DNA of 64,000 nt from Bryobacterales bacterium (GTDB lineage: Bacteria > Acidobacteriota > Terriglobia > Bryobacterales > Bryobacteraceae), in contig JADZGD010000039.1 of assembly GCA_020854055.1 (NCBI GenBank), positions 1 to 64,000 on the forward strand, given 5' to 3'. Every line of letters starts with the position of its first letter. The stretch's first letter is position 1. A program made the position numbers and the translations under genes. Positions 2,804-11,428 of this stretch are shown one piece after another. The notes under the pieces were generated by a model that worked only from the letters and a program-made list of their open reading frames with translations, was not told the DNA's origin and searched no databases.

Positions 2804-3496
2804 TTAATCCCTGACGTCGATGGTGCTGCGCTGGAAAGAGATGCGCAGCCGGGCCGAGGTCGGCTGTCCGAAGAACGTAGCCGGTTCGAACCGGGTCACC
2901 AGCAGCTTGCTTTCAATAGCCCGGCGAATTTCGGTATTTCCCGCCAACGATCCCTGCCCGCCGGGAATGGAGTAGCTGACCATCCGGCCGCTTTCGTCCA
3001 CCAGCAGGTCCACCACCACGCCGTCACCCGTATCGCCAAGCGGCAGGCTGTCTTTGATGGAAGCTTCCGTGGAGAGAACCGTGGGCACATCGCCGGCCGA
3101 ACTGGCGCGCAACAGCGTCAGCGTGGGAACCAGCATGCTGAACAGGAAAATTGCCGAAACAAGGCCGCCCGTAAACGGAATGGCGAACGGACGCATGAGA
3201 TTTTCCGCCCACAGGTCAAAGCGGCGGATCATTACCCCGAGGAAACCCTGATACTCGCCCGAACGGCGGCGGCTGGCTTCACGGGAGGCGATCACACGCA
3301 GCGAAATGGCAAGGTCACGCGGAACCGGGCGGCGACGGATCTGGCTGGTCTGCGAACGCAAGCGGTCAACTTGTTGCGCATACGTCCGGCACTGACGGCA
3401 CTGGGCGAGGTGCTGTTGGAGTTCAACGACCTCGGCGGCAGACAACGTACCATCCATGTGGCCGGAAATGTTGCGATCGATACCGTTACACATCAT
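2804..3496 (-). CDS. Zinc-finger anti-sigma factor, membrane-anchored, with TonB-C-like outer domain
   Basis: Likely anti-sigma factor for the ECF sigma encoded 4 bp upstream. The first 40 residues carry an H-x3-C-x2-C zinc motif (HLAQCRQC), typical of ZAS-type anti-sigma domains. One hydrophobic segment (about residues 105-130, FTGGLVSAIFLFSMLVP) would span the inner membrane. The part after it resembles a TonB C-terminal fold: a VDLLVDESGRMVSYSI strand, a helix, then RFEPATFFGQPTSARLRI. Such domains usually lie in the periplasm, so the protein may sense something there. Pairing with the sigma gene is clear from context; the TonB-C resemblance is by eye. Confidence 0.8.
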   Translation of the reverse strand: MMCNGIDRNISGHMDGTLSAAEVVELQQHLAQCRQCRTYAQQVDRLRSQTSQIRRRPVPRDLAISLRVIASREASRRRSGEYQGFLGVMIRRFDLWAENLMRPFAIPFTGGLVSAIFLFSMLVPTLTLLRASSAGDVPTVLSTEASIKDSLPLGDTGDGVVVDLLVDESGRMVSYSIPGGQGSLAGNTEIRRAIESKLLVTRFEPATFFGQPTSARLRISFQRSTIDVRD

Positions 3497-3500
3497 AGGT

Positions 3501-4187
3501 TCACTCGACCGTCTGCGGGGTCCATTTGACAGAAGTCCGTGAGTAGAACCGCCCCGCCAGACAGCGGCGCAAAGCCTCGCGGCCGCGTAGGATTCTCGAC
3601 TTCACGGTGCCCAAAGAAATCCCCAGAATCTCGCTGATCTCCTCGTAGCTCAAATCCTCAATGTCACGAAGAACGACTGCCGTCCTGAACTTTGGATTGA
3701 GTTGCTGCAACGCTTCCTCAATCAAGGCCTGTGTCTCGTGGCCCAACAACTGATCAAAAGGCGAGATTCCCTGATCGGGCAACAAATCCTGATAACATCC
3801 ACGCTCATCGTCCTTCTCGAGGCCCACTTCCTGCCGGCGGTGGCGGCTGAACCAGCGCTGGTGGTTGTAAGCTTCGTTCACGGCGATGCGGTAGATCCAC
3901 GTTCTTAGAGTGCTCTGTCCCCGAAATGAACCAATACTGCGAAACACTTTCAGAAACACTTCCTGCACAACATCAATGGCGTCAGACGGATCGCTGAGAA
4001 GACGGCAAACCAGGTTATAAACCGGCTGCTCGAATCGGGCGATCAGCGTCTCGTAGGCTTCCTCGTCACCCGCGCGGAGCCTTTCGGTCAGTTGCTGATC
4101 TTCTGAACAGGCGTCAGCCTGAAAATCTCCTCCGGCAAATGCTCCGCCGGTCACGGACAGGTCAAACCCGATGGTTGAATCGGCCAT
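3501..4187 (-). CDS. ECF-family RNA polymerase sigma factor
   Basis: Alternative sigma factor of the RpoE type, 228 residues with an N-terminal extension of about 30. Region 2 is visible as DAIDVVQEVFLKVFRSIGSF followed by LRTWIYRIAVNEAYNHQR. Region 4 is the helix-turn-helix YEEISEILGISLGTVKSRI near the C-terminus. It is the first gene of a close-packed operon with its anti-sigma factor, rsmA, gltX and glnS. A match to the ECF promoter consensus lies about 60 bp upstream of its ATG, suggesting positive autoregulation. The regulon beyond this operon cannot be read from the window. Confidence 0.92.
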   Translation of the reverse strand: MADSTIGFDLSVTGGAFAGGDFQADACSEDQQLTERLRAGDEEAYETLIARFEQPVYNLVCRLLSDPSDAIDVVQEVFLKVFRSIGSFRGQSTLRTWIYRIAVNEAYNHQRWFSRHRRQEVGLEKDDERGCYQDLLPDQGISPFDQLLGHETQALIEEALQQLNPKFRTAVVLRDIEDLSYEEISEILGISLGTVKSRILRGREALRRCLAGRFYSRTSVKWTPQTVE

Positions 4188-4288: not shown

Positions 4289-5413
4289 TTAGGAGCCCAG
4301 GATCTCGGAATAGTACTGTTCGTACCGCGGGATGATGAGACTGGTCGAGAAGCGGGTCAGCGCGGTCTGGCGGGCGGCGGCGGCCATCTTTTGATGGTGT
4401 GTCCGGTCGGAAATAATCTCCACCACACGCTCGGCTTGCGCGTCCAGGTCGCCGGGTTGCTCCAGATATCCATCCAGCCCATGCGTGATCAGTTCGGGAA
4501 CGCCGCCGACATTGGTGGCCACCGGGACCACCCCGCAGGCCATAGCCTCGAGCGCCGCCAGGCCGAAGCTTTCCAGCCTGCTCGGCAGCAACAGCACATG
4601 TCCCACTGGCAACAGCCGTTCCACGTGATCCTGCTTGCCGAGGAAAGTAACGTGGCTTTCCACCCCCAACTCGCGGGCCAACCGCTGCGCCGGACTGCGG
4701 TCGGGACCGTCGCCCACCATCAGCAGATGGGCCGCTTCCTGCTGGCGCACCTTAGCCAGAATGCGGATGCAGTCCAGCGCGCGCTTCACCGGACGAAAGT
4801 TCGATAGATGCAGCAGAATCTTCGCGCCGCCGGAGACGAACTCGGACGCTTTGCGATGGCGCCGGTCCGGGTGATAGGTCTCGCAGTTTACGAAGTTGGG
4901 AATTACCCGGATCTCATTCCCGACGCCGAACACATGAACCGTTTCCTGCTGGAGGTAGGTGCTGATAGAGGTAATACCGTTGGATCGCTCAATGGAGAAC
5001 CGGGTGATGGGAAAGTAGGACGGGTCGGTACCGACCAGCGTGATGTCGGTGCCGTGCAGCGTGGTAATAAACCGCAACCTGTGGCGAGGAGCCAGCATCT
5101 GCTGGGCCAGCAACGCGGAGATCGAATGCGGGATGGCGTAATGGACATGCAATAGATCGAGATCGTAATTCTCAGCCACTTCTGCCATCCGTGAGGCGAG
5201 CGCCAGGCAATAGGGGGGATACTGGAAGAGCGGATAGGTGGAAACTTCCACCTCGTGGTAGTTGATCCGTGGAAGCCCCGGATCGAGCCGGATCGGGTTG
5301 GCGTAACTAATAAAATGCACCTGGTGGCCACGCGCGGCCAGCTCCAGGCCAAGTTCGGTGGCCACGATACCACTTCCACCGTAGGTCGGGTAACATGTGA
5401 TGCCCACCTTCAC
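4289..5413 (-). CDS. bshA: N-acetyl-alpha-D-glucosaminyl L-malate synthase
   Basis: GT4-type glycosyltransferase for the first step of bacillithiol synthesis, joining UDP-GlcNAc and L-malate. The 374 residues begin with the BshA-typical MKVGITCYPTYGGSGIVATE, followed by HVHYAIPHS and TLHGTDITLVGTDPSY. The C-terminal donor-binding segment ESFGLAALEAMACGVVPV carries the GT4 E-x7-E signature. The length matches the family. No bshB or bshC is in the window. The gene is divergent from tolC and ends just before the ECF promoter. The other GT4 enzymes are less likely because the N-terminal and His-rich motifs are specific to BshA. Confidence 0.93.
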   Translation of the reverse strand: MKVGITCYPTYGGSGIVATELGLELAARGHQVHFISYANPIRLDPGLPRINYHEVEVSTYPLFQYPPYCLALASRMAEVAENYDLDLLHVHYAIPHSISALLAQQMLAPRHRLRFITTLHGTDITLVGTDPSYFPITRFSIERSNGITSISTYLQQETVHVFGVGNEIRVIPNFVNCETYHPDRRHRKASEFVSGGAKILLHLSNFRPVKRALDCIRILAKVRQQEAAHLLMVGDGPDRSPAQRLARELGVESHVTFLGKQDHVERLLPVGHVLLLPSRLESFGLAALEAMACGVVPVATNVGGVPELITHGLDGYLEQPGDLDAQAERVVEIISDRTHHQKMAAAARQTALTRFSTSLIIPRYEQYYSEILGS

Positions 5414-5545: not shown

Positions 5546-7009
5546 ATGATGAAGAATATTCTCGCTGTTGTCCTTCTGTGCTCTGTCGCGGCCGCTCAAT
5601 CCGGCACATCGATCGCTCCGCAAACGCCCGGATCGGGAGCGGGACCAACACCGGCCATCAGCCTGGTAGCACCAGGCTCGGCGATTTCGGGAAGCATTCC
5701 GCATGGCGCCGCAACGGCGGATATTTTACCGCTCTCTCTGCCCGACGCCATGGCGCGGGGCTTGCGCTATAACCTGGCGCTGACGAATGCCGATTTGAAC
5801 ATTCGGGGAACCAGCGCCTCCCGGCTGCGGGCACTAAGCGCTCTGATGCCCAACCTCTCGGCGCAGGCCTCCGACACCACCCAGCAAATGAACCTCAAGG
5901 CACTGGGTTTCGGCGGGTTTCCTGGCATTCCGGCGATCATTCCGCCCTTCAACGTGATGGACTTGCGAGCGGCGCTGACCCAGGCGGTGATGGATTACAG
6001 CGCCATCCAGCGCTACCGGGCCGGGGGCGCGGACCTTTCGGCGGCGCGGCGTTCCCTGCAGAACACGCGCGACCTGGTGGCGCTGGCGGTGGTTTCCCTC
6101 TATCTGCAGTCGATCACCGCGTCCTCGAGGATTGATGCGGCACGGGCGAACGTGGAGACTGCCAACGCTCTCTACCACCAGGCCGTCGACCAGAAGAAAG
6201 CCGGCGTGGTGCCGGGAATCGACGTGCTGCGTGCCCAGGTGGAATTGCAGGCCGAACAGCAGCAATTGATCTTCTACCGCAAGGAGTTTGAGAAGCGAAA
6301 GCTGGACCTGGCGCGGGCCATCGGCCTGCCGGCCGGCCAGGCCTTCCGGCTCACCGATCCGGTGCCCTACACTCCGCCGCCGCCGATTACGCTCGATGAG
6401 GCGCTCGCGCGCGCCTACGATGCGCGTCCGGATTACCTGGCACTGCGCGAACAGGTGCGCTCGGCCGAATTGTTACGCAAGGCGGCGGGCGGACAAAGAT
6501 TGCCGTCCATCGTTTTCGACGGTAATTACGGCACCATCGGCCCGCGCTTCAACGACAACCACGGAACCTTTCTGGTGACCGGCGCCATTCGAGTTCCCAT
6601 CTTTGACGGCGGACGGATTGCGGCCGATGTGGAGCAGGCCGATGTGTTGCTGTCCGGACGCCGGGCCGAGTTGGAGGACCTGCGCGGGCGAATTGATTAT
6701 GACGTCCGCACCGCGTTTCTCGATCTGAATGCCGCCGCCGACCAGGTAAAGGTAGCCGAGAGCAATCGCATCCTGGCGCAACAGGAGCTGGAGCAGGCCC
6801 GCGACCGTTTTGCCGCGGGTGTCAGCAACAGTGTGGAGGTGGTTCAAGGCCAGCAGGCGGTGGCCACAGCCCAGGAGAACTTCATCAACGCCCTGTTTGC
6901 CTACAACCTAGGGAAGGCCTCCCTGGCGCGCGCGGTCGGCTCAACGGAGACAAACATCTTGAAATATTTGAATACAGGCACGATAGGAACCGGAGGCGCG
7001 CGCAAGTAG
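5546..7009 (+). CDS. TolC-family outer-membrane efflux channel
   Basis: Outer-membrane channel of a tripartite pump, 487 residues. An N-terminal signal peptide (MKNILAVVLLCSVAAAQS) is followed by two OEP repeats rich in long helices, for example LPDAMARGLRYNLALTNADL near residue 65 and the related ITLDEALARAYDARPDYLAL in the second half. The stop is directly followed by the ATG of the adaptor gene. Together with the next three genes it forms a complete export operon. The ATG at 5549 is an equally possible start. Substrate is unknown. Confidence 0.92.
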   Translation: MMKNILAVVLLCSVAAAQSGTSIAPQTPGSGAGPTPAISLVAPGSAISGSIPHGAATADILPLSLPDAMARGLRYNLALTNADLNIRGTSASRLRALSALMPNLSAQASDTTQQMNLKALGFGGFPGIPAIIPPFNVMDLRAALTQAVMDYSAIQRYRAGGADLSAARRSLQNTRDLVALAVVSLYLQSITASSRIDAARANVETANALYHQAVDQKKAGVVPGIDVLRAQVELQAEQQQLIFYRKEFEKRKLDLARAIGLPAGQAFRLTDPVPYTPPPPITLDEALARAYDARPDYLALREQVRSAELLRKAAGGQRLPSIVFDGNYGTIGPRFNDNHGTFLVTGAIRVPIFDGGRIAADVEQADVLLSGRRAELEDLRGRIDYDVRTAFLDLNAAADQVKVAESNRILAQQELEQARDRFAAGVSNSVEVVQGQQAVATAQENFINALFAYNLGKASLARAVGSTETNILKYLNTGTIGTGGARK

Positions 7010-8344
7010 ATGGCCGATGGATTGGAAGTAGGACCGAAATCGCCGCTGGGCGAGCCACGGCAGCCCGCCGAACCACAGCAGCCGGCGCACGTCCGGCAGA
7101 CACCTCCCGAGGAGCCGCCGGAGGAACCACCCTCCGCCACGAGCGGACGCAAGGTCTGGATTCTGGCCGCCGTGATCGCCGTGGGGCTTGGGGCCGCCTT
7201 CTACGCATGGCGCTACTACTCGGTGCGCGAGACTACTGATGACGCTCAGATCGCGGCGCACATCGCCCCGGTGAGCGCCCGGGTCAGCGGCTACATAACG
7301 GCGGTGAACGTAGACAATAACCGCTACGTGGAGGCCGGCGCTATTCTTGTGCAGATTGACCCGCGCGATTACCAGGTCGCCGTGGAAAAGGCCAGAGCCG
7401 ATCTTGCGGCGGCCGAATCGGCGGCGCATGCGGCTCGTACTCATATCCCCATCACGACCACCACAACCTCAAGCCAGCTTCACATCGCCCAGGCAGGCGT
7501 GCACGAAGCCGAGGCCGGCGTGGAGAGCTCCCGTCAGCAGGTGGATGCGGCGCTCGCTCGCGTAAAGCAGGCAGCGGCCAGCCTGCGGCAGGCCGAAGCC
7601 AACTACGTTAAGGCCGACAGCGACCGGCAACGCTATCAGCAACTGGTGGCTAAGGACGAAGTCTCCCAGCAGCTTTATCAGACGGCTGTGACCGCGGCGG
7701 AGGCGCAGCGGGCACGCGTGGATGCCGCACGCTCAGGCGTGGCCGAGGCCGAGCAGGAGGTTTCGGTGGCCAGGGCGCACGTCGTGCAGGCCGAGGCCAA
7801 AGTCCGGCAGGCCGAGGCGAATGTGGCGGCTGCATCTTCGGCTCCACAACAGGTCCAGGTCTCCCGGCAGCGGTCGAGCGAAGCCGGCGCGTTAGTCGAA
7901 CAAAAGAAGGCGGCGCTGGCTCAGGCGGAATTGAATCTGCAATACACCACGGTACGGGCGCCGGTCAACGGCATCATCGGCAAGCGCAACGCCGAATTGG
8001 GACAGAACATCAGCCCGGGACAGCCGCTGATGGCCATTACTCGCATGGACGATATCTGGGCCACGGCCAATTTCAAAGAGACGCAGATGAACCACATGCG
8101 CCCCGGACAAAAGGCCAATATCAGCGTGGATGCGTATGGCGGCCGCGATTATGCCGGCTATGTGGAGAGCATCGCCGGAGCCACCGGGGCGACGTTCAGC
8201 CTGCTGCCCCCGGAGAACGCCAGCGGCAATTTCGTCAAGGTGGTACAACGCATTCCCGTGCGTGTGCGGCTCAACCAGGGACAGAATTCGGAGCACGTGT
8301 TGCGGCCCGGCATGTCGGTGGAAGTCACGGTGTTCACGCAATGA
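7010..8344 (+). CDS. EmrA/HlyD-type membrane fusion protein
   Basis: Periplasmic adaptor linking an inner-membrane DHA2 pump to the TolC-like channel, 444 residues. A proline-rich cytoplasmic head of about 45 residues precedes a single membrane helix (WILAAVIAVGLGAAFYAW). Then come the lipoyl half-motifs (APVSARVSGYITAVNVDNNRY and VRAPVNGIIGKRNAELGQN) flanking a long Ala/Gln-rich coiled-coil hairpin (about residues 125-305). A beta-barrel domain follows. The ATG directly abuts the tolC-like stop, and the TGA overlaps the next start in ATGA. The architecture fits the EmrA type. Confidence 0.92.
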   Translation: MADGLEVGPKSPLGEPRQPAEPQQPAHVRQTPPEEPPEEPPSATSGRKVWILAAVIAVGLGAAFYAWRYYSVRETTDDAQIAAHIAPVSARVSGYITAVNVDNNRYVEAGAILVQIDPRDYQVAVEKARADLAAAESAAHAARTHIPITTTTTSSQLHIAQAGVHEAEAGVESSRQQVDAALARVKQAAASLRQAEANYVKADSDRQRYQQLVAKDEVSQQLYQTAVTAAEAQRARVDAARSGVAEAEQEVSVARAHVVQAEAKVRQAEANVAAASSAPQQVQVSRQRSSEAGALVEQKKAALAQAELNLQYTTVRAPVNGIIGKRNAELGQNISPGQPLMAITRMDDIWATANFKETQMNHMRPGQKANISVDAYGGRDYAGYVESIAGATGATFSLLPPENASGNFVKVVQRIPVRVRLNQGQNSEHVLRPGMSVEVTVFTQ

Positions 8345-8979
8345 GTTCGCCGATTCGCATCATTACGATCGCCCGGGAGTTCGGCAGCGGAGGCGCGATC
8401 ATTGGCGGTATCCTCGCGTCGCGGCTCGGTTGGGCGCTGGTTGACCACACCTTCATCGACCAGGTGGCGGCCCAGCTCAAGCTGGAGCCGGAACTGGTGG
8501 AGCGCTGGGACGAGCGCGTGGATACCTGGTTTTACCGTACCGTGCGCGCCCTCTGGCTGGGTGGCTACGAGGGATCGGCGACGGCATCAGGGGGCGAAGG
8601 CGTGCTCGATGCCGGGCGGATGGCACGACTGGCGGCGAGCACCATCGGGCAGGCGGCCGGCATCGGAAACTGCGTCATCGTCGGACGGGGCGGCCAGTGT
8701 CTGCTGCGGCATCGCGATGACACGTTCCACGTGTTCATATACGGGCCGTGGCGCGAGAAGATTGTGCGTGTCCGCGAGCGCTTCGGCGTTGACGCGAACG
8801 CCGCCGCCGAATTGATGCGCGAAAGGGACCACCAGCGGGTCGCCTACGTCCACAGTCACTTTCAACAGGACTGGTGCAACCGGCGGCTCTACCAGATGCT
8901 GCTCGACTCGGGCGTCGGCGTGGAGCGCGCCGCCAGCGCCATCCTGGTGGCGGCGGGACTGCAAGGGACCACCACCTGA
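8341..8979 (+). CDS. Cytidylate-kinase-like protein inside the efflux operon
   Basis: P-loop kinase of the cytidylate kinase-like family, 212 residues. The N-terminus IITIAREFGSGGAIIGGILA is the modified P-loop typical of this family, followed by GWALVDHTFIDQVA. NCVIVGRGGQCLL and an Arg-rich lid region (REKIVRVRERFGVDANAAAELMRERD) come next. It starts in a four-base ATGA overlap with the adaptor gene and ends in a one-base TGATG overlap with the pump gene, so it is an integral member of the operon. The family is often unassigned biochemically; substrate and role in export are unknown. Confidence 0.85.
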   Translation: MSSPIRIITIAREFGSGGAIIGGILASRLGWALVDHTFIDQVAAQLKLEPELVERWDERVDTWFYRTVRALWLGGYEGSATASGGEGVLDAGRMARLAASTIGQAAGIGNCVIVGRGGQCLLRHRDDTFHVFIYGPWREKIVRVRERFGVDANAAAELMRERDHQRVAYVHSHFQQDWCNRRLYQMLLDSGVGVERAASAILVAAGLQGTTT

Positions 8980-10544
8980 TGCCTGCGTCATCAACCGGCC
9001 AACCGCCGCAGGTGAACCCTTGGCTGGTGGCCATCGCGGTCATGTTCGGCACCTTCATGGAGGTGCTGGACACCACGGTGGTCAACGTGTCGCTTCCGCA
9101 CATCGCCGGAAGCCTGTCATCCACCATCGACGAAGCAACCTGGGCGCTGACCTCCTACCTGGTGGCCAACGCCATTATTCTTCCATTGACCGGTTGGCTG
9201 GCTGCCTACTTCGGGCGCAAACGGTTGCTGATGTTCGCGGTGAGCGGCTTCACGATCTCGTCTGTGTTGTGCGGACTGGCGCCGAATCTGGCGGTGCTGA
9301 TCCTGTTCCGGCTGGTGCAGGGGGCCACCGGCGGCGTGCTGCAACCCATCTCGCAGGCGGTGATGCTGGAGGCCTTCAAACCCGAGGATCGCGGCAAGGC
9401 GATGGGCTTCTGGGGGTTGGGAATCGTGGTGGCGCCCATGTTGGGCCCGGTGATTGGCGGCTGGCTGACGGACAACTACAGTTGGCGCTGGGTGTTCTAC
9501 ATCAATCTGCCGGTGGGCATCCTGTCGGTGATCATGGCGCATTTGTTTATCTTCGATCCGTCGTATTTGAAGCGGGAAAACCGGGGTATTGATTACTGGG
9601 GCATCGGGATGCTGGCGGTGGGCATGGGAGCGCTGCAGTTTATGCTCGACAAAGGGCAGCAGGATGACTGGTTCGGTTCGCGCCTGATCACCTGGCTGGC
9701 CGTAGCCGCCGGTGTGGGCCTTGTCTCCTTCGTGATCCGGGAACTGGTGAGCCGGAGTCCGGTGGTGGACTTGAGGGCGCTGAAGGAGCGGACGTTCGCC
9801 TCCGGTGTCACGCTGATGACCGCCGTCGGGTTCGTTTTGTACGGAAGCCTGGTGTTGCTGCCCGAGTTTCTCCAGGTGTTACTGGGCTACCCGGCGCTGC
9901 AGGCGGGGGTCGCCATGGCCCCGCGGGGATTGGGATCGTTCATCGGCATGCCCGTCGTGGGGATGATCCTGTCCAAGGTGGACGCCCGCAAGATGCTGGC
10001 CATCGGCGTCGCCGGAACCGCGTTCACCCTCTATCAGTTGTCTCAGTTGAATTTGCAGTGCGGCTACTGGGATATCTTCTGGCCGCAGTTCATTCAGGGG
10101 CTGGCGCTTTCGATGCTGTTTGTGCCGCTGACCACGGTGACCATGGCGCCGATCTCGAGGGAGAAGATGGGTAACGCCACCAGCATCTTCAACCTGATGC
10201 GGAACCTGGGCGGCAGCATGGGGATTGCCGCCGCCACCACCATGGTGGCGCGCCGGGAACAGATGCACCTCAATCAGTTGGGTGAGCACGTCACTGTGTA
10301 CGACAACGCCACCCGCCAGTTCCTGAACCAGATGCAGCACGCCCTGGAAGCCCACGGCTCCGATGCCGTGTCGGCAGTTCATAAGGCCCAGGGCGCGCTG
10401 TTCGGTATGTTGGACCAGCAGGCCACGCTGCTGGCCTATCTGGACGTTTTCTTTATCATGGCGATCATCTTCCTGTGTGTGCTGCCGCTGTTACTGCTCA
10501 TGCGCCGGGCGGCCAAGGGCTCCGGACCGGTGGCCGCTCACTGA
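8979..10544 (+). CDS. DHA2-family MFS drug efflux pump (EmrB/QacA type)
   Basis: Inner-membrane proton-driven exporter with about 14 predicted helices over 521 residues. The family signatures LDTTVVNVSLPHIAGSL (helix 1) and WALTSYLVANAIILPLTGWL are present. GRKRLLMFAVSGF and the helix-5 motif GPVIGGWLTDNYSWRWVFYIN follow. An ATG at 8979-8981 overlaps the kinase stop by one base. Longer readings would run back through the kinase gene and lack domain support. With the channel and adaptor genes upstream it completes an Emr-type tripartite pump. Confidence 0.92.
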   Translation: MPASSTGQPPQVNPWLVAIAVMFGTFMEVLDTTVVNVSLPHIAGSLSSTIDEATWALTSYLVANAIILPLTGWLAAYFGRKRLLMFAVSGFTISSVLCGLAPNLAVLILFRLVQGATGGVLQPISQAVMLEAFKPEDRGKAMGFWGLGIVVAPMLGPVIGGWLTDNYSWRWVFYINLPVGILSVIMAHLFIFDPSYLKRENRGIDYWGIGMLAVGMGALQFMLDKGQQDDWFGSRLITWLAVAAGVGLVSFVIRELVSRSPVVDLRALKERTFASGVTLMTAVGFVLYGSLVLLPEFLQVLLGYPALQAGVAMAPRGLGSFIGMPVVGMILSKVDARKMLAIGVAGTAFTLYQLSQLNLQCGYWDIFWPQFIQGLALSMLFVPLTTVTMAPISREKMGNATSIFNLMRNLGGSMGIAAATTMVARREQMHLNQLGEHVTVYDNATRQFLNQMQHALEAHGSDAVSAVHKAQGALFGMLDQQATLLAYLDVFFIMAIIFLCVLPLLLLMRRAAKGSGPVAAH

Positions 10545-10588: not shown

Positions 10589-11428
10589 ATGAGACGATCC
10601 ATTCTGGCACTGATCGGCTTGGCAGCGTTCTCGTGTTGCAGTCATGCAGCCAGCCTGCGAATCATGACCTTCAACGTTCGCTATCCCTCCAAGAACGACG
10701 GAGCCAACCTATGGGAAGCGCGGCGCGACATATTGGTCCGGACTATCCGCATGAACGATCCGGACATTGTGGGCACCCAGGAACTTTTCTACGAACAGGG
10801 CCAGTATATCGCCGGGAAACTGCCCGCATTCACCTGGTTCGGCATCAGCCGCAGGGGCAATCACGAAGATGAACACATGGGCGTGTTCTATCGCAAAGAC
10901 CGGCTCGAGTTGCTCGACTCCGGCAATTTCTGGCTTTCGGAGACGCCCGAAGTACCGGGCAGCATGTCCTGGGACGTCTCGCTCCCTCGCATGGTGACCT
11001 GGGGAACGTTCCGGCACCGGGCGAGCGGCAGGACGTTTCACTACTTCGATACCCACTTTCCCCATCGCCGCGAGGACAGCGCTGCGCGAGTCCAGTGCGC
11101 CGAAGTAATCCTCAATCGAATCAAAAAGCTGCCGCCGGCGGAAGATGTCATTTTGACGGGCGATTTCAACTCCCGCACCGGCTCGGAGCCCTATTCTATT
11201 TTGACCCGGATGCTGAATGACGCTCACAGAGTCGCGCCGGAAGGGAAGGGCCCGGAAGGCACGTTCCACGCTTTTCGGGGCACGCCGTTTCCCGGGAGGA
11301 TCGATTGGATTCTCTATCGCGGGAACCTGAAGCCGGTGTCGGTGGACACGATCACCTACAACGAAAACGGCCGCTACCCGTCGGATCACTTTCCCGTCGT
11401 CGCCGTTTTCGATTGGATCGCCAGGTAG
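10589..11428 (+). CDS. Secreted endonuclease/exonuclease/phosphatase family protein
   Basis: Metal-dependent phosphodiesterase or phosphatase fold, 279 residues. The start ATG at 10589 has a good GGAAGG ribosome site and yields a signal peptide (MRRSILALIGLAAFSCCSHA). Active-site motifs are IMTFNVRY, the metal-binding GTQELF, THFPHR, LTGDFNSRTGSEPY and the terminal SDHFPVVA. This subtype resembles secreted proteins near sugar and phosphodiester metabolism rather than DNA repair enzymes. It lies 44 bp after the efflux operon and could be co-transcribed. Substrate is unknown. Confidence 0.85.
   Translation: MRRSILALIGLAAFSCCSHAASLRIMTFNVRYPSKNDGANLWEARRDILVRTIRMNDPDIVGTQELFYEQGQYIAGKLPAFTWFGISRRGNHEDEHMGVFYRKDRLELLDSGNFWLSETPEVPGSMSWDVSLPRMVTWGTFRHRASGRTFHYFDTHFPHRREDSAARVQCAEVILNRIKKLPPAEDVILTGDFNSRTGSEPYSILTRMLNDAHRVAPEGKGPEGTFHAFRGTPFPGRIDWILYRGNLKPVSVDTITYNENGRYPSDHFPVVAVFDWIAR

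Follow-up and report, generated by a model that had tools for sequence, protein, structure and literature searches.

An EmrAB-TolC-type operon containing a kinase-like gene

We analysed a 64,000-nucleotide stretch of DNA from a Bryobacterales bacterium (positions 1 to 64,000 of contig JADZGD010000039.1, assembly GCA_020854055.1; hereafter the window), in which a gene for a kinase-like protein, here called kin, lies within an efflux operon between the genes for an EmrA-type adaptor and an EmrB-type pump. The open reading frames confirm the order tolC, emrA, kin, emrB and the ATGA and TGATG overlaps described in the original prediction (Table 1), and the emrA ATG (7010) directly abuts the tolC stop codon TAG (ending at 7009). 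By their profiles, the genes encode an EmrB-subfamily DHA2 pump, an EmrA-type adaptor and an OEP channel in one operon, identifying it as an EmrAB-TolC operon; TIGR00998 is the top-scoring adaptor model for the emrA gene, though under its cut-off. Across the genome (4.96 Mb, 159 contigs), the window pump is the single EmrB above the TIGR00711 cut-off, and there is one clear PF13189 gene, with two weaker above-cut-off PF13189 matches (42-43 bits) that include the true cytidine monophosphate (CMP) kinase; the RND family has 18 matches (~17 genes). Since the only above-cut-off EmrB of the genome adjoins its only clear PF13189 gene, the adjacency is not due to chance.

Table 1. Features of the efflux operon, cleft motifs of the kinase-like protein, and membrane-protein fusions of its relatives
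Feature	Position	Strand	Basis
TolC-type outer membrane channel (OEP), gene 1	5546..7009	+	PF02321 152.5 bits; TIGR01844 129 bits, below cut-off
EmrA-type periplasmic adaptor, HlyD family	7010..8344	+	PF16576, PF13437; TIGR00998 EmrA/EmrK 253 bits, cut-off 391
ATGA overlap, emrA stop / kin start	8341..8344	+	sequence
PF13189 Cytidylate_kin2 protein, 212 aa, degenerate P-loop	8341..8979	+	134 bits, residues 7-190, cut-off 28
Degenerate P-loop R12-E-F-G-S-G-G18-A-I20	8374..8400	+	aligns without gaps to GPAGAGKST of the own CMP kinase
G115-R116-G117 motif	8683..8691	+	aligned with E-G-R-D of the own CMP kinase; both acids gone, Arg kept
D163-x-x-R166, lid-region D/R pair retained	8827..8838	+	conservation in 165 sequences
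TGATG overlap, kin stop / emrB start	8977..8981	+	sequence; emrB ATG at 8979
EmrB-type DHA2 major-facilitator pump	8979..10544	+	TIGR00711 505 bits, cut-off 230
DUF6198-PF13189 fusions	L228:721-2181, L244:715-2100, L216:688-2040		Verrucomicrobiota

The kinase-like protein has a CMP-kinase-type fold and an altered cleft

No NCBIfam model matches the 212-aa protein, and PF13189 is its only Pfam match. Structure prediction, which had been proposed together with the operon, gave an AlphaFold model with a predicted local distance difference test score (pLDDT) of 85 and a predicted template modelling score (pTM) of 0.80. This model has a CMP-kinase-like fold, and its top structure matches are 3hdt (Z 22.7) and 3fdi (Z 22.2), far above the next rows (~15), so that the protein belongs to PF13189 by fold as well as by profile score; CMP kinases (~13-15.6), shikimate kinases and chloramphenicol phosphotransferase 1qhs (Z 12.8) follow. 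The earlier description as a P-loop kinase of AAK6 type is only in part correct: the protein folds like a CMP kinase, but the loop REFGSGGAI has no Walker A lysine; AAK6/Fap7 proteins are defined by an intact one, and Fap7 (4cvn) is found among the generic nucleoside monophosphate (NMP)-kinase matches.

Aligned without gaps by MAFFT, the P-loop of the genome's own CMP kinase reads IDGPAGAGKSTIA and that of the window protein IAREFGSGGAIIG; we relied on this match and on the fold comparison, as hhalign in global mode against the own CMP kinase scored poorly. Relative to the Walker A pattern GxxxxGK[ST], Lys is replaced by Gly18 and Ser/Thr by Ala19/Ile20, and where CMP kinases have [DE]GRD the protein reads V114-G115-R116-G117. 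Among 165 PF13189 sequences from Acidobacteriota, Verrucomicrobiota, Bacillota, Bacteroidota, Fusobacteriota and others, none has Lys at the Walker A position, while R12 (162), R116 (164), R166 (163) and D163 (156) are near-invariant. The adjacent Ser/Thr is absent throughout the subfamily, and the fold motifs are kept by the homologues (96 aligned genes). Loss of the Walker A lysine is therefore family-wide as far as sampled and not peculiar to the window protein. Since the Arg and Asp residues are near-invariant and the Lys is never present, the cleft seems to be under selection, yet unlike that of a normal kinase, and judging from these residues the label "kinase" is doubtful.

The Pfam name and the fold might suggest a second housekeeping copy of CMP kinase for nucleotide supply. 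However, a normal cmk (250 bits) is present elsewhere in the genome and has the GPAGAGKST and EGRD motifs, both of which the window protein lacks, and we consider this explanation exceedingly improbable; identity with the housekeeping enzyme is ruled out by the same features.

The original prediction further proposed that the protein phosphorylates the exported compound. A broader form of this idea is an active small-molecule kinase with a non-standard P-loop, which would serve detoxification or self-resistance by phosphorylating an exported compound, or would trap an imported one in the same way. The shared fold with CMP and shikimate kinases and the match to 1qhs speak for it, as do R12, R116, D163 and R166, which are as near-invariant as an active site would be. 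On the other hand, the Walker A Lys and the next Ser/Thr are gone in the subfamily, the Lys is also gone in all distant members sampled, and the two acids of EGRD are replaced by V and G. On these residues, drug phosphorylation is weakened and less likely, and we regard an active small-molecule kinase in general as unlikely, for a further reason that arises from the transporter partners described below.

Recurrence of the gene beside efflux pumps

Among 61 relatives examined, 13 have a homologue, some at marginal E-values, and in four of these besides the window's genome kin lies beside emrA or emrB. The gene order is tolC-emrA-kin-emrB in L018 and L019, tolC-emrA-emrB-kin-emrA in L021, and tolC-emrA-emrB-kin in L022. 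In L021 (4666-5985; the same as L104) the second emrA-type adaptor lies directly 3' of kin in a tolC-emrA-emrB-kin operon. A scan of genome contigs confirmed 191 relatives, of which the best 80 loci were kept, a similarity ranking that may favour the context seen in the window; a scan of viral contigs with the window protein found no relatives. We then pooled 103 distinct proteins from the relatives, the genome contig scan, a phylum sample and extended loci, and classed them by their neighbours. Efflux-pump genes adjoin 39 of the 103: 20 lie immediately 5' of emrB (17 with emrA on the other side, 3 with no emrA called upstream), 15 immediately 3' of it, and RND operons account for the remaining 4, leaving 64 in other contexts. 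The RND operons are laid out either as MFP, an AcrB and OEP fusion, and kin, or as kin-MFP-AcrB-OEP. Gaps are short, mostly 4-20 bp from emrA to kin and mostly -8 to 12 bp from kin to emrB. The pump-linked homologues span Acidobacteriota and include one Verrucomicrobiales metagenome-assembled genome (MAG; G458), which has two emrA-emrB-kin-OEP operons on different contigs.

An even sample of the phylum yielded 19 high-scoring subfamily genes, 8 of them pump-linked; the chance of this is ~1e-12 if the genes are taken as independent (relatedness ignored) and 36 places among an estimated ~4400 genes are counted as pump-adjacent. This bears on whether kin is a passenger, that is, an unrelated gene sitting in the operon by chance. 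Such a reading draws on the many solo homologues and on the EmrAB operons of the window's family, most of which are without kin, but it has to account for a link that recurs in several phyla, with three pump superfamilies and in either of two gene orders, the gaps staying close to zero, and we judge it very improbable. The view that the gene belongs with the pump is instead upheld, as the link recurs with altered gene order and other pump types, and the concern that it might be restricted to close strains is dispelled by its spread across Acidobacteriota and into a Verrucomicrobiales MAG.

The link also changed repeatedly. When the 103 proteins are placed on a maximum-likelihood tree, 15 switches between pump-linked and other are needed, at least 9 of them forced by well-supported branches; gene order and RND linkage likewise switch repeatedly. 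An EmrB tree with 26 members that are without kin shows the two kinds interleaved, with 10 changes, at least 6 of them forced; these counts on both trees do not separate gains from losses. The association of kin and pump is kept or re-made through changes of gene order and with different pumps.

Several loci have arrangements of their own. In L061 (1567-5958), L068 and L081 a single protein of 1464-1472 aa is encoded; by Pfam, the L061 chain combines an AcrB-type RND pump (ACR_tran, 584 bits) with an outer-membrane factor (OEP, 135 bits), with an HlyD-type adaptor before it and a PF13189 gene after it. L037 has emrB-kin and then a downstream run of adaptor, RND and OEP genes (by BLAST), placing two pump types near one kin, and in L053 (1872-5124) kin-emrB directly follows zwf-opcA-pgl, a glucose-6-phosphate dehydrogenase operon, with no upstream emrA or tolC. 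We rejected two further candidates. Apparent in-frame kin-EmrB fusions (long frames of 441-759 aa) are upstream read-through in high-GC DNA, the genes being separate with a 4 bp overlap; and no other gene replaces kin in the close EmrB relatives that are without it, since those EmrBs are orphans or lie in differently ordered operons.

PF13189 genes adjoin unrelated transporters in other phyla

Transporter genes lie directly upstream of 25 of 34 distant PF13189 genes, some of them assigned through relatives or annotation, compared with 1 of 19 distinct controls, which are genes at least 4 genes away in Acidobacteriota loci. The Fisher test gives 1.4e-6 on the raw counts and 3.6e-4 when the genes are collapsed to 12 of 19 lineages (~11 of 18 under a stricter collapse); since the controls are unmatched for taxon, this enrichment is indicative rather than a measured rate. 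The anticipated objection that most homologues lie in unrelated contexts is accordingly borne out for the subfamily, where 64 of 103 are not pump-adjacent, but not for the distant genes, most of which follow transporters.

The partners belong to about nine unrelated families. Pfam assigns upstream neighbours to MFS_3, Glt_symporter, P-type ATPase, Thia_YuaJ (ThiT), ABC ATPases and DUF6198; MatE genes are upstream in three lineages (by identity), and an amino-acid permease gene is downstream in one further locus. Spacing is again tight: the PF13189 gene follows a MATE efflux gene by 13 bp in Lachnospira and Roseburia, an SLC13 permease gene by 15 bp in Ruminococcus albus (before Trk genes), and an amino-acid ABC ATPase gene by 15 bp in Treponema. 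Exceptions, with non-transporter neighbours, are gyrA, metallophosphoesterase, PBP, HSP90, GH31 and TPR/thioredoxin genes. At least three tested Verrucomicrobiota reading frames (Table 1) carry a DUF6198 (YczE-like) membrane protein N-terminal to PF13189 in one chain; in L305 the two are encoded separately, DUF6198 lying just upstream. Adjacency or fusion to unrelated transporters in at least six phyla points to PF13189 as an unrecognised transporter-partner family and away from a kinase that modifies drugs.

The locus in Fusobacterium vincentii has the order TetR-OEP-MFP-RND-137aa-PF13189, in which the 137-aa protein (L280:6562-6975) has no Pfam match. For F. nucleatum TDC 100, induction values of 1.96 for the PF13189 gene CS401_RS03620, 2.07 for CS401_RS03615 and 1.95 for an RND permease have been published, the PF13189 gene and the permease gene thus being induced alike; the permease locus is printed as CS401_RS3610, a number near that of the PF13189 gene (PMC9848294).

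A proposed regulatory role

These partners weigh on what the protein might do. Varied transporters could mirror varied substrates of a small-molecule kinase, but a single cargo chemistry is unlikely when one site is paired with MATE, RND, P-type ATPase, GltS-like and amino-acid ABC partners, and a detoxifying kinase leaves unexplained the pairing with transporters whose usual direction is inward (the amino-acid ABC, SLC13, glutamate symporter-like and thiamine families). Because one conserved site serves unrelated exporters and importers, a shared signal is suggested rather than a shared cargo. Modification of the transporter or a partner protein, by phosphorylation or nucleotidylation, would fit many unrelated transporters better than cargo modification, and fusion to a membrane domain places PF13189 at the membrane; however, the catalytic residues are lost and no common partner feature was identified, none having been searched for, and we think this improbable.

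With belief and doubt about evenly balanced, we propose instead that the window's PF13189 protein is a cytosolic accessory of EmrAB-TolC, from a family that partners transporters, which binds a ligand and regulates the pump. We infer a cytosolic location since no membrane segment is evident. A phosphate-bearing ligand (a nucleotide, a nucleotide signal or a substrate analogue) would sit in the former kinase cleft, bound by R12, the GSGG loop, R116, D163 and R166, and the protein would contact and regulate its partner transporter, while translational coupling may tie the dosage of kin to that of the pump. The earlier alternative that the protein couples export to nucleotide state stands closer to this regulatory proposal.

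Several observations weigh against the proposal. As 64 of the 103 subfamily genes, mostly two clades of solo Acidobacteriota genes, are without an adjacent pump, the protein can act without a neighbouring pump or has another job. Of the 36 EmrBs in the window's family only 4 have kin beside them, and since most EmrAB operons there are without it, kin is an accessory that efflux as such does not require. The P-loop, GR and DxxR residues are equal in pump-linked and solo genes, and thus give no sign of a pump-specific role; differences between the two are confined to the variable middle of the protein and reflect clades. Furthermore, a missing lysine is no proof of lost catalysis, and the sample of 34 neighbours was drawn from metagenome-like, plasmid-labelled and family-clustered records.

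The family-wide link to transporters is a more interesting claim than the operon itself. Somewhat more tentatively than for the window protein, we suggest that PF13189 is a general class of transporter partners, degenerate P-loop kinases that would detect a phosphate-bearing ligand in the cytosol and exert control over transporters of unrelated families, possibly MFS, RND, MATE, SLC13, GltS-like, P-type ATPase, ABC, APC and DUF6198. Proteins annotated as "cytidylate kinase-like family protein" occur in many phyla with no known role, and the link to transporters turns this annotation into a testable hypothesis.

Genes flanking the operon

On the same strand, 44 bp 3' of emrB, lies a gene for an Exo_endo_phos protein with a signal-peptide-like start (10589-11428), possibly the fifth gene of the efflux transcript. 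A GT4 glycosyltransferase gene (4289-5413, - strand) is divergent from the operon, and beside it lies a pair of genes for an ECF-type sigma factor and a zf-HC2 (anti-sigma-like) protein (2804-4187, - strand). A TetR gene heads several emrA-kin-emrB operons (L030 and L151 tested), and since it stands at the operon start, transcriptional control is already supplied in those operons; the window operon is without TetR.

Comparison with known systems

Like EmrAB-TolC of E. coli and emrCAB of Chromobacterium violaceum, the window operon encodes an MFS DHA2 pump, an HlyD-type adaptor and an OEP channel, but it has a fourth, kinase-like and probably cytosolic protein coded between adaptor and pump. 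The part of a review on Emr-type systems covered by a term search describes tolC-, emrA- and emrB-type genes in one operon in C. violaceum and turned up no kinase-like component (PMC8277102). The literature searched, with subscription journals and preprints largely outside it so that an earlier mention is possible, gave no function for PF13189 and no kinase-like Emr part. Accounts of tripartite efflux pumps give them three core parts, and a conserved fourth cytosolic part in Acidobacteriota, if true, would be a new handle on pump control.

The closest structures, 3hdt (Clostridium symbiosum) and 3fdi (Eubacterium ventriosum), share the family, the fold and the R-E-[FY]-G-S-G-G loop without Walker lysine; both are uncharacterised structural-genomics entries with no function or transporter link in the literature searched. 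CMP kinase (Cmk, PF02224) shares the fold, the DxxR lid pair and the Arg of the GR motif, but has the Walker A Lys, the Ser/Thr and the catalytic or CMP-binding acids that the window protein lacks. Chloramphenicol phosphotransferase (1qhs) is a precedent for drug phosphorylation and has the P-loop kinase fold in common, although it is no closer than other NMP-kinase-like folds, and its P-loop lysine is intact. PII-like regulators, such as GlnK with AmtB, are small cytosolic ligand binders coded beside the transporter on which they act. Their likeness to PF13189 is one of analogy only, the fold and family being unrelated; a PII manner of action for the transporter partners, with a fold new for that job, is conceivable by this analogy, though we lean slightly towards doubting it.
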